Assembly: GCA_020846885.1 (NCBI GenBank)
Contig: JADLDC010000164.1
Coordinates: 1-32,180, forward strand
From: Acidobacteriota bacterium
GTDB lineage: Bacteria > Acidobacteriota > Blastocatellia > Pyrinomonadales > Pyrinomonadaceae
Length of the DNA stretch: 32,180 bases
Reading direction: 5' to 3'
In this document: in pieces, positions 5,966 through 32,180 of the stretch
Numbering within the stretch: the first letter of the stretch is position 1
How the letters are laid out: each line of letters opens with the position of its first letter
Made by a program: the position numbers and the translations under genes
The notes under the pieces: model-generated
Database searches by the model: none
Seen by the model: only the letters and a program-made list of their open reading frames with translations
Told to the model about the DNA's origin: nothing

Positions 5966-6206
5966 AGGCCGTGTCAAATGCTTAAAATCCCGTAGGGATC
6001 TTGTGAAAATAGCCCACCGATTTATCGGTGGGAACGAATCACAGGTTTCCCGGTAGTCCCGCAGGGACGGTTGAAAACCAGTAAACATCGCCATTTTCTG
6101 TCGTCCCTACGGGACTCGGACCGCGTTGAAATTTTCCCCCACCGATGAATCGGTGGGCTATTTTCGGCCGTCCCTTCGGGACAAATACGTTGTTTTGACA
6201 CAGCCT
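5966..6206. mobile_element. 241-bp MITE-like element: TIRs, six hairpins, 6-bp TSD
   Basis: TIR AGGCCGTGTCAAA (5966-5978) / TTTGACACAGCCT (6194-6206), 12/13 match; flanked by CGTTAG at 5960-5965 and 6207-6212; hairpins 5987-5999, 6013-6032, 6056-6068, 6103-6115, 6138-6157, 6170-6182. Confidence 0.85.
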
Positions 6207-27179: not shown

Positions 27180-29507
27180 TCAGTGCAGGGTTATACTGTC
27201 ACTGATCGATCGGCCGTCTCGCGGTTGGCCGTCGTCGTCCGCGATTTGCTCGGATGGCAGCCATTGCGGGCGTTTGTAAAGAAGCTCTTCGGTTTCCTCG
27301 CGGCCCTTGGGTTTTGCCAACAGATATCCCTGGCCGTAATCACACCCCAAATTCTGCAGTACAGCGAGTTGCGGCTTGGTCTCGATCCCTTCCGCGATAA
27401 CGCGCATTTTAAGATTCTTCGCCAGTGAGATCACGGTTTGAAGGACTTCGGAATCCTCACCGTGCTCGCCAACCCGGTTAACGAACGAACGGTCGATCTT
27501 TAGCGTATCGAAAGGAAGTCGGTGCAGCACACTCAGGCTTGAGTACCCGGTACCAAAATCGTCAATGCTCAGCTGGACGCCTATCTCCTTGAGCCGGCCG
27601 AGAATATGTATCGTGTGCTCTGCATTTTCCATCGCCGTGCTTTCGGTTATTTCGAGCTTTAGTGTTCGGGCCGCAACTCGCGAGGACTGGAGTGCGCCGA
27701 CGACATCGTCGATCAGCAGGTTTTTTGTCAGATGTTTGCCAGAGATGTTGACGCTGACCACCAGGTCGCGATATTCGGGCGCGATCTTTTGCCATTCGGC
27801 CAATTGACGGCAGGATTCGTGAAGGATCCAGATCGTTATTGGAAGAATCAGCCCTGAATCTTCGGCGATAGGAATGAAGCGGAAAGGCGGGATCATTCCC
27901 ATCTTTGCGTGATGCCAGCGAAGCAATGCCTCAAAGCCGATAAGCCTTCCGTCCGTCAGCGAGACGATCGGCTGATAATGCAGGCTCATCTCATTTCTTT
28001 CGACCGCATGCCGCAGGTCCATTTCAAGCCGAATGCGTTCGAGAAAGCGATCACGCATCTCGCGATTGAATACGGCCGGGCCATCGTTCTTTTCCTTTGC
28101 GAAATGCATTGCAATGTCAGCGTCGCGAAGGATTTCTTCGGGCGTGTCATATTCCGGATCGGACGGTGCGATGCCAATATTCAGGTCTATGGTGATGCTG
28201 TGGCCGCCAAGCGAAAAGGGCTGCGTCAGGCTCTTGTAGATCCTTCGCGCGACCTTCTGCGCCTTGTCGGCGTTCGGAAGGTCACGGAGGATGATAGCGA
28301 ATTCATCTCCGCCAATGCGGGCAACGACATCGCCCGGGTTCAGCATTCGGATAAACCTTTTTGCGGCCACGACCAGGACCTTGTCGCCGATCGTATGGCC
28401 CAGCGAGTCGTTGATATCCTTAAAGCCTCGAATGTCGAGGAACAATACCTGGAAAGCGATCGAACTGTCCGCCTTGCTCTCCTCGATCATTCGTCGAAGC
28501 ACATCACCGAAATTCTTTCGGTTCGCAAGTCCGGTCAGCGAATCATGCAATGCCGCGTGCTGAAAATCACGTTCGCTTTTGCGAAGGGCAATGTTCGCCT
28601 GTTCTTCCTTTGAGAGGGCCAGCTGCAGCTGCGACGCATGGCTTTCGGCTTCGAGCCTTCGTTCGCGCTCAGCCGCGGCCTTGGCACGCTCGGCTTCTTC
28701 GACTTGGGCAAATGCCGTGTTCACCTCGCCGATTGACTGGCGGTAACTTAGGAAAGCGACCGCAATGGCCAGCAATGCTGTAGCCGCGGTGATGATGTCG
28801 CCGTAGTTAACGAGTTTGAAAACTATCCCTGCCAATCCAATACCGACGATCTGGGTCATCGAACTTGAAAAGCAATATTTTTTCCACGTTTCCCAAAGGC
28901 TCTCGCCCGTCTTTAGTGTGTGAAAGATCGCGGCAAACGACGAAGACATCATGAACTGCGATAGGCCGAGTACGCCAAGGAGCGTGATCAGATGCTGCGT
29001 TTTCTCGGGCGTAAAGTCAGGGCCGGCGATGCCCTGGACGATCAGCAGGACAATGAACGTGGTCGTTGTCGCTAGAATGTTGATCGCAATGTTCGTCGGG
29101 ATCATCAGCGGCCCCCAAGGATGGCCGGACCGTTTTAGATAAAGACAATTTGCCAAGGTTTCAACTGCCGCAAGGATGATCGCCCCTTCACCTCCGTACA
29201 GAAGAAATGCAAGAAAGATCAATGAGTCGGCAAAGCTTATCGCGAATCTCGAACGAGGCAGCGTCAGAGTGACGTGCGGAGAGGCCAGTGCTGCGAAGGC
29301 CAGCACGAAAAGAAACCCCCAGCCTATCGTTGTCCGCGGCAGGTTCGCAACGGCGTACACAAGACAAAGCGCTCCTAAACCGATCACCACTACCTTGACG
29401 GAAGTCGAGAATCGTTCGCGGTTTACAACCTGCGCATTATCGAAGGTTTTGCTGGACATCTGAGGCAGACTTCTGCTACAAGGAGGGAGGTGCTGTAGGC
29501 CAAACAA
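27180..29507 (-). CDS. Membrane GGDEF-EAL protein (c-di-GMP turnover)
   Basis: 775 aa; N-terminal multi-TM sensor; ARIGGDEFAIILRD; EAL-domain GFEALLRWHH, DDFGTGYSSLSVLHRLPFDTLKIDRSFV. Confidence 0.95.
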   Translation of the reverse strand: MFGLQHLPPCSRSLPQMSSKTFDNAQVVNRERFSTSVKVVVIGLGALCLVYAVANLPRTTIGWGFLFVLAFAALASPHVTLTLPRSRFAISFADSLIFLAFLLYGGEGAIILAAVETLANCLYLKRSGHPWGPLMIPTNIAINILATTTTFIVLLIVQGIAGPDFTPEKTQHLITLLGVLGLSQFMMSSSFAAIFHTLKTGESLWETWKKYCFSSSMTQIVGIGLAGIVFKLVNYGDIITAATALLAIAVAFLSYRQSIGEVNTAFAQVEEAERAKAAAERERRLEAESHASQLQLALSKEEQANIALRKSERDFQHAALHDSLTGLANRKNFGDVLRRMIEESKADSSIAFQVLFLDIRGFKDINDSLGHTIGDKVLVVAAKRFIRMLNPGDVVARIGGDEFAIILRDLPNADKAQKVARRIYKSLTQPFSLGGHSITIDLNIGIAPSDPEYDTPEEILRDADIAMHFAKEKNDGPAVFNREMRDRFLERIRLEMDLRHAVERNEMSLHYQPIVSLTDGRLIGFEALLRWHHAKMGMIPPFRFIPIAEDSGLILPITIWILHESCRQLAEWQKIAPEYRDLVVSVNISGKHLTKNLLIDDVVGALQSSRVAARTLKLEITESTAMENAEHTIHILGRLKEIGVQLSIDDFGTGYSSLSVLHRLPFDTLKIDRSFVNRVGEHGEDSEVLQTVISLAKNLKMRVIAEGIETKPQLAVLQNLGCDYGQGYLLAKPKGREETEELLYKRPQWLPSEQIADDDGQPRDGRSISDSITLH

Positions 29508-29776
29508 AGTTTAACATTCCTTGATCAGAAAATACAGCAAAAAATGAAGGCTGGTCCAACCGAAATGTATACAAAATAACCACATTCCGAGTGTATACCT
29601 GATAATCAGTCCGCTAACTGTTGTTAAGACAATACTTACATGTCGGACAAGCGACGACTGGCAACAAAATATACAGTTTTCGCCCGAACCATATTTTGGG
29701 ATCCTAGCGGTTTGCTTCGACTGTAACTAGTTGTAAAAGCACTAGTTATAAGAATATTGATCTGATGTCTGATTTG

Positions 29777-29793
29777 TGGCACGGAGGTTGTAT
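29777..29793 (+). promoter_or_regulatory. Sigma54-like promoter with non-canonical -12
   Basis: TGGCACG-GAGG-TTGTA: consensus -24 box; -12 is GT instead of GC at the right spacing; 55-60 bp upstream of the GILVTG gene. Confidence 0.45.
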
Positions 29794-29847
29794 TTAGGGA
29801 GGGCAGGTCGGAGCGAAAGGCTCAAAATTAAAACCTGGAGAAGAAAA

Positions 29848-30144
29848 ATGAAAAACATCAAAAACATCGTCGCAGCATTCCTGATCGTCACTTTCCTCAG
29901 CGTCAGCACCTTCGCAGGTGACGGCATCCTCGTTACCGGCAGAGACGGCATCCTCGTTACGGGCGTAGCGGCAGAGCCGACACCCTGCACGGCGTCAGCG
30001 GTAGACGGCATCCTCGTAACGGGCCGCGACGGCATCCTGGTAACAGGCTTTGCGGGGATCCTTGTCACGGGCTTCACCGGAATTCTAGTGACGGGATTGA
30101 CGGGCACCAGCACCTGCCGCGGCGGCCTGCTCATCAGCGACTAG
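29848..30144 (+). CDS. Secreted GILVTG-repeat peptide (98 aa)
   Basis: MKNIKNIVAAFLIVTFLSVSTFAGDGILVTGRDGILVTGVAAEPTPCTASAVDGILVTGRDGILVTGFAGILVTGFTGILVTGLTGTSTCRGGLLISD; GGAG RBS; start trimmed from 29776; followed by a terminator. Confidence 0.85.
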   Translation: MKNIKNIVAAFLIVTFLSVSTFAGDGILVTGRDGILVTGVAAEPTPCTASAVDGILVTGRDGILVTGFAGILVTGFTGILVTGLTGTSTCRGGLLISD

Positions 30145-30252: not shown

Positions 30253-30287
30253 GCCCGCCGAATCGCTCGGCGGGCCTTTTTTGTTTT
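30253..30287 (+). terminator. Rho-independent terminator
   Basis: GCCCGCCGA-ATCGC-TCGGCGGGC followed by CTTTTTTGTTTT. Confidence 0.9.
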
Positions 30288-31667: not shown

Positions 31668-32180
31668 GACATTACTTTGCAAAGGATTTATTTATTGCGT
31701 TTGCCTATTTCTTTTTGCCGGGCTTGTTCTCGGGCAGGAACGGAGGTATGAGGATAAAACAGAGTCGCCCTATTTTTTTGTACAGGGCGACCCGGCCATT
31801 GACCGGCTGCCGCTCAAGAGCACCAACGTCAACATTGCGGTTTCGGGCGTTATCGCTGATGTGACAGTCGTTCAAACATATCGCAACGAGGGGACAAGGC
31901 CGATAAACGCGACCTACTTGTTCCCGGCTTCGACCCGGGCAGCAGTCTATTCGATGCGGATGCGTATTGGGAACCAGTTGATCGTCGCAAAAATAAAACA
32001 ACGCGAGGCGGCGAAGCAGGAATTTGAGCAGGCAAAGAAAGAAGGCAAGAGCGCCTCATTGCTTGAAGAGAACAGGCCGAATGTTTTCTCGATGAAGCTG
32101 GCCAATATGATGCCGAACGATGATGTTGAGATCGAGCTGCGTTATACCGAACTGCTGGTGCCGACTGACGGCGTTTATCA
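31668..32180 (+). CDS. VIT-domain secreted protein (3' truncated by window edge)
   Basis: MTLLCKGFIYCVCLFLFAGLVLGQERRYEDKTESPYFFVQGDPAIDRLPLKSTNVNIAVSGVIADVTVVQTYRNEGTRPINATYLFPASTRAAVYSMRMRIGNQLIVAKIKQREAAKQEFEQAKKEGKSASLLEENRPNVFSMKLANMMPNDDVEIELRYTELLVPTDGVY; VIT pattern; GGGGAG RBS. Confidence 0.88.

Follow-up and report, generated by a model that had tools for sequence, protein, structure and literature searches.

The window, a 32,180-nt stretch of contig JADLDC010000164.1 from an Acidobacteriota bacterium, belongs to a genome assembly (GCA_020846885.1) of 3.47 Mb that is 79% complete. An ORF at 29848..30144 on the forward strand (stop codon included) encodes a protein of 98 aa, which reads MKNIKNIVAAFLIVTFLSVSTFA followed by GDGILVTGRDGILVTG and ends in GLLISD. 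A putative Sec/SPase I signal peptide, recognised by eye, spans aa 1-23 (29848..29916, +) with cleavage between STFA and GDG, and AF2 predicts a helical segment in this region (aa 4-22, pLDDT ~77). The rest of the chain carries two Cys residues, at positions 47 and 90, and six copies of the hexapeptide GILVTG, which start at aa 26, 34, 54, 62, 70 and 78 (29923..29940, 29947..29964, 30007..30024, 30031..30048, 30055..30072 and 30079..30096, all +) and show octad spacing in the central block. The six copies, the two Cys and the signal peptide had been described in an earlier note made from the letters alone and are borne out by the translation and the by-eye prediction, as is its remark that copies 1 and 6 share no codon (GGC ATC CTC GTT ACC GGC versus GGA ATT CTA GTG ACG GGA). 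The note overlooked a seventh, variant unit at the C-terminus, GLLISD (30124..30141, +), which represents a second unit type ending in SD that recurs in many orthologs. For the mature chain AF2 gives no fold and no strands (pLDDT <50), although it is a poor test for amyloid. A search of the window's own genome with the GILVTG pattern returned GIFVTG as the sole extra match, and in three genomes searched for the related hexamers GIIIDN and GIIINN no second protein contained them.

The precursor gene is preceded by a sigma54 -24/-12 promoter match, TGGCACGGAGGTTGTA (29777..29792, +), and by an inverted repeat, TAACTAG-N11-CTAGTTA (29724..29748), which is likely to be the upstream activator site. 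A TGG[C/T]A-N6-TTG box lies upstream of the precursor in all 47 members examined, and in 34 of these the -24 box is itself preceded, at a distance of 51-54 nt, by a TAA..TTA dyad (shuffled mean 3.0, maximum 9). Judged by a -24/-12 box of the form TGGCAC-N5-TTG with an upstream activator site, the precursor genes appear to be sigma54-dependent. Single-sequence folding places a short hairpin, GAGC-GAAAG-GCTC, in the 5' UTR (29811..29823, +), with similar hairpins in most members when each is folded singly, and a stem followed by a T run, resembling an intrinsic terminator, can be read downstream (30253..30284, +). No known RNA family scores above its gathering score at the precursor locus (suhB, 21.7 of 41 bits). 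Elsewhere in the window, at 6138-6183 (+), an Acido-Lenti-1 RNA scores 53.1 bits (gathering score 37), and the start of an ORF that by eye looks VIT-domain-like (~31668-32180, +) runs off the window end. Similar sigma54 boxes also precede other genes, among them some whose translations look by eye like type IV pilins, a small cytochrome-like protein and a secreted protein rich in Gly. A perfect box stands before a type IV pilin-like ORF (L143, G000:C151) of the window's own genome.

The window precursor is flanked by a class-V aminotransferase (cysteine desulfurase-like) gene and by a divergently oriented membrane GGDEF-EAL gene of 759 aa (27180..29459, -), which is proposed as the receptor on the basis of Pfam matches (GGDEF 5.5e-41, EAL 7.2e-76), adjacency and co-occurrence. 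Its N-terminal membrane domain (aa 1-245; 28725..29459, -) matches no Pfam family. The AF2 model of aa 1-301 has a mean pLDDT of 81, and the best coherent PDB matches of the predicted sensor domain in Foldseek are ECF S-components (RibU, ThiT, BioY and PanT; target TM ~0.5-0.65, probability up to 1.00, E ~0.04, that is, >0.001). The domain is therefore predicted to resemble S-components, a ligand-binding and receptor fold. A simple EAL-motif check is failed by 6 of 34 sensors.

The gene pair is conserved. The GGDEF-EAL gene adjoins the precursor gene in most loci of several genera, and in genus g21 it is kept while a different gene of 618 aa takes the precursor's other side. The two genes are about 4 kb apart in one genome (G082) and on separate contigs in three (G026, G084, G092). 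When sensor orthologs are defined by E <1e-80, a cut-off with a clear gap from paralogs, 48 of 165 genomes have both genes, 4 only the peptide, 7 only the sensor and 106 neither (Fisher p=4e-29, with relatedness ignored), and the association also holds within Pyrinomonadaceae outside the window's genus (p=3e-10, genome relatedness again being ignored). Variant peptides are present in three of the seven sensor-only genomes. Sensor orthologs in G105 (C77, L282), G016 and G106 have no recognisable peptide or sigma54 box alongside, and they may be second copies or eavesdroppers. In a partial Mantel test, distances between hexamers follow those between sensors beyond what the catalytic domain accounts for (partial r 0.22), but the control correlations of signal peptide and spacers are stronger and more positive, so that the result gives no evidence of specific hexamer-sensor coevolution and was discarded.

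Sequence searches of Pfam, NCBIfam and PDB yielded no relative of the precursor, in line with the earlier failure to recognise a named family, and nothing was found in the literature on the motif or on sigma54 peptides in Acidobacteriota. In whole-genome searches, orthologs occur in 36 of 41 species of the window's genus and in 52 of 165 genomes of its class, all of them Pyrinomonadaceae like the window, and a sample of 297 genomes from the phylum added no further family. The named relatives are mostly metagenome assemblies. Precursor length is 85-109 aa in 47 members, and the 33 distinct members follow one plan, in which the signal peptide is followed by 0-2 units, a Cys, 2-4 units, a second Cys and 0-3 units; none of the 33 has more or fewer than two Cys. 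The unit formula is G-hydrophobic3-x-x, near-uniform inside one protein and variable among species: GIIVAG, GIIIAG, GIIIDN, GIIINN, GILVSD, GIIITD, GVVIGG, GIIVFG and GIIIAK occur in the window's genus, and GIIMSG, GILVTF, GVIVNL and GIVPVG in other genera. The hexamer is not strictly private to a species, because several species share one (GIIVAG, in 6 of the 33 members). The C-terminus of the precursor is an exact unit end in 38 of 47 members. The spacing between units ranges from 0 to >30 residues, and the two unit types appear in differing orders, which makes a fixed fold unlikely. A fixed octad beta-solenoid was ruled out by these variable gaps together with the lack of strands in the AF2 model.

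Among the 33 distinct members, units differ at 1.04 of 6 positions within a protein and at 2.47 between proteins; 2000 shuffles gave no value lower than 2.25. The uniformity of units within a protein is not due to chance. At positions with the same residue, codon identity is 0.55 among copies of one protein versus 0.48 between unrelated members, which indicates that the copies are old, and neighbouring copies are no more alike in codons than remote ones. Copies resemble each other at 81% inside the units versus 19% in the flanking residues. Since synonymous sites are near saturation and the spacers are unrelated, selection acts on the hexapeptide. The earlier proposal, made for the window's gene, that older repeats are maintained by selection on the peptide thereby finds support throughout the family, and its argument against recent DNA duplication agrees with the codon and spacer data, by which such an origin of the repeat was ruled out. 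The family is thus a clear example of several copies in one small protein that have kept the same amino acids although their codons have drifted apart. L004 and L007 are very close sisters: three of their four copies show an I/L change at the third position of the unit, and nearly all the rest is identical. In the six-species clade to which they belong (L004, L005, L007, L010, L012, L013), 16-18 of 18 signal-peptide codons, within the first 60 nt of the CDS, are identical, whereas in the cysteine desulfurase gene next door no more than ~0.43-0.53 of the codons are retained between the more distant pairs. The beginning of the mRNA may therefore be under an additional constraint.

Reduced forms of the locus are informative about the product. 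In one genome assembly (G147), the usual place of the precursor beside the sensor and the sigma54 box holds no long precursor and instead contains two ORFs, each with an RBS and each encoding MKGIIVVG by the same sequence (ATG AAA GGA ATC ATC GTA GTT GGC TAA). A congener (G146) has a 97-aa precursor, and among 165 genomes the mini-ORF pattern was seen next to this sensor alone. Another genome (G008; L281, L135) has two tandem precursors that lack a signal peptide and carry the units GIIVSD, GMLVSD and GIIVFG with FSR/FAK spacers, and in G110 the precursor is only 52 aa. Taken together, the mini-ORFs, the leaderless tandem and the 52-aa form are most simply read as pointing to the hexapeptide itself as the product.

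We consider it modestly probable that the gene encodes a multi-copy precursor (once leaderless) of a hexapeptide signal, which is sensed by the neighbouring c-di-GMP enzyme. RNA polymerase with sigma54, together with a putative activator on the conserved dyad, would transcribe the gene; the chain would presumably be exported by Sec, and proteases would free several copies of the hexapeptide, GILVTG in the window's species. The divergent GGDEF-EAL protein might then bind the peptide through its S-component-shaped membrane domain and alter c-di-GMP, and hence behaviour, for example a surface-bound or motile way of life. A quorum function of the hexapeptide is conceivable. This reading draws on what was observed, namely conserved repeats, a sigma54 box, a precursor and a sensor gene that stay paired and co-occur, and the reduction in G147, as well as on a predicted sensor fold. 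A signal precursor is favoured because unit spacing and order vary and species use different hexamers, because two MKGIIVVG ORFs are all that is left of the gene in one species, because the conserved partner is a receptor-like c-di-GMP enzyme, and because AF2 gives the mature chain no fold. Several points count against it. A consensus protease site was not seen around the units, no dedicated exporter was seen adjoining the precursor gene, and the leaderless forms would have to leave the cell in another way or act inside it.

The main rival, less likely than a signal precursor and on our estimate improbable, is a subunit of an extracellular fibre or matrix, in which identical beta-branched hexapeptides would pair as amyloid- or silk-like strands within and between molecules while the c-di-GMP neighbour controls matrix formation. 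Of the two functions suggested in the earlier note, the signal precursor is accordingly preferred to this amyloid or matrix peptide. The I/V/G-rich hexamers, the Sec signal, the two constant Cys, the linkage to a c-di-GMP enzyme, and the type IV pilins and Gly-rich secreted protein behind similar sigma54 sites would all suit a fibre. CsgA and FapC, the functional amyloids, are likewise small secreted proteins with several beta-prone repeats. The present family differs from them in its irregular spacing and its mini-ORF forms, and it has no above-cut-off match to the curlin or Fap models (best for the window, FapA with 14.8 bits against a cut-off of 100; none in 32 members). A fibre is also hard to reconcile with a species in which only MKGIIVVG is made, with proline inside the unit GIVPVG or Lys in GIIIAK, and with the absence of strands in AF2, with the reservation on amyloid noted above.

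Rather less probable still is that the protein acts whole, its uncut chain or free C-terminal unit docking in the sensor domain as a multivalent ligand or antagonist. Such a partner would account for the conserved pairing with the sensor, and most members do end in a unit and keep two Cys able to form a loop, but the identity of several copies, the mini-ORFs, the 52-aa form and the leaderless forms would be left unexplained. A hydrophobic peptide toxin or bacteriocin with species-specific units, its GGDEF-EAL neighbour sensing membrane stress, is very unlikely: the peptides are indeed short, hydrophobic and species-variable, but the units are short and in many species uncharged, and a conserved immunity or export gene was not seen alongside. 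That the repeats are a DNA-level artefact, either a recent tandem duplication or a functionless mutational by-product, is scarcely credible and is contradicted by the ortholog data. The octad spacing of the central block and the slightly higher codon identity within than between proteins would fit, but synonymous sites are nearly saturated, spacers are unrelated, and conservation extends throughout the family to promoter and partner.

With regard to known systems, the proposed multi-copy signal precursor resembles Rap-Phr and other RRNPPA systems with duplicated propeptides, in which a small Sec-exported precursor holds several pheromone copies of 5-8 residues, the copies are more conserved than the spacers and the receptor gene adjoins (PMC11343458, PMC9765709). 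A Phr propeptide can contain as many as 8 copies of its pheromone, and conservation is higher in the pheromones than in the stretches that separate them (PMC11343458). The window's protein of 98 aa, with its by-eye signal peptide, falls within the 10-100 aa of Sec-exported RRNPPA propeptides (85-109 aa in 47 members), but no cytosolic TPR receptor of 250-500 aa is adjacent at the window locus. In RRNPPA systems the pheromone is re-imported to meet a cytosolic TPR receptor in Bacillota, while here a membrane GGDEF-EAL partner and a sigma54 promoter are found in Acidobacteriota and no sequence relation is shown. By analogy, the precursor system would work like peptide pheromones without being a member of RRNPPA. 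Leaderless communication peptides, such as SIP with RopB, have 8 residues (PMC10518010). Likewise, the G147 mini-ORFs directly encode a hydrophobic peptide of 8 residues without a signal sequence, unlike the window's gene, which has a leader; but they occur in one species only, as duplicate ORFs, with a long precursor in most relatives and a GGDEF-EAL protein rather than an RopB/Rgg-type receptor adjoining. S-component folds have been described in receptors that carry GGDEF and EAL domains, as well as in 5TMR kinases (PMC11109136). The present partner, with its predicted S-component-like membrane domain joined to intracellular GGDEF and EAL output domains, would be similar, whereas S-components have vitamins and similar small molecules as ligands, and a peptide ligand is not mentioned in the consulted parts of that paper. 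The family also departs from AgrD/AIP, since the neighbours include no AgrB-type protease and a Cys near the C-terminus for a thiolactone, immediately before the last unit, is found in only 18 of 47 members. Fungal alpha-factor-type precursors are multicopy secretory pheromone precursors with clear Kex2/Ste13 sites. They share with the present family several near-identical, species-variable copies per secretory precursor, but sites of this type are absent here.

Most known oligopeptide pheromones come from Gram-positive bacteria, and few of the c-di-GMP enzymes that have membrane sensors can be assigned a ligand. Whether these loci form a new peptide signalling system of the Gram-negative Acidobacteriota, with sigma54-driven, multi-copy, species-tuned hexapeptide precursors, rarely leaderless 8-codon ORFs, and an S-component-fold receptor that sets c-di-GMP within one protein, seems to us nearly an even question, leaning slightly to doubt. 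The hexamer would then serve as an address that varies around a constant G-I-I core. If this is true, Acidobacteriota, which are abundant and hard-to-culture soil bacteria, gain a signal that is readable from genomes and testable as synthetic peptides of six residues, and an orphan S-component-fold GGDEF-EAL receptor gains a candidate ligand.

Repeats are also found in large secreted proteins (~1000-aa frames; L014, L016, L019-L024, L027, L028), which may be peptidase-like and which carry many N-terminal units of GITLTGAD, GIATTGAD or GIATTGVD. In seven genomes, an upstream sigma54 box was not found for them and the codon identity of their copies is 0.32-0.49; the upkeep of the repeats is similar to that in the precursor family.
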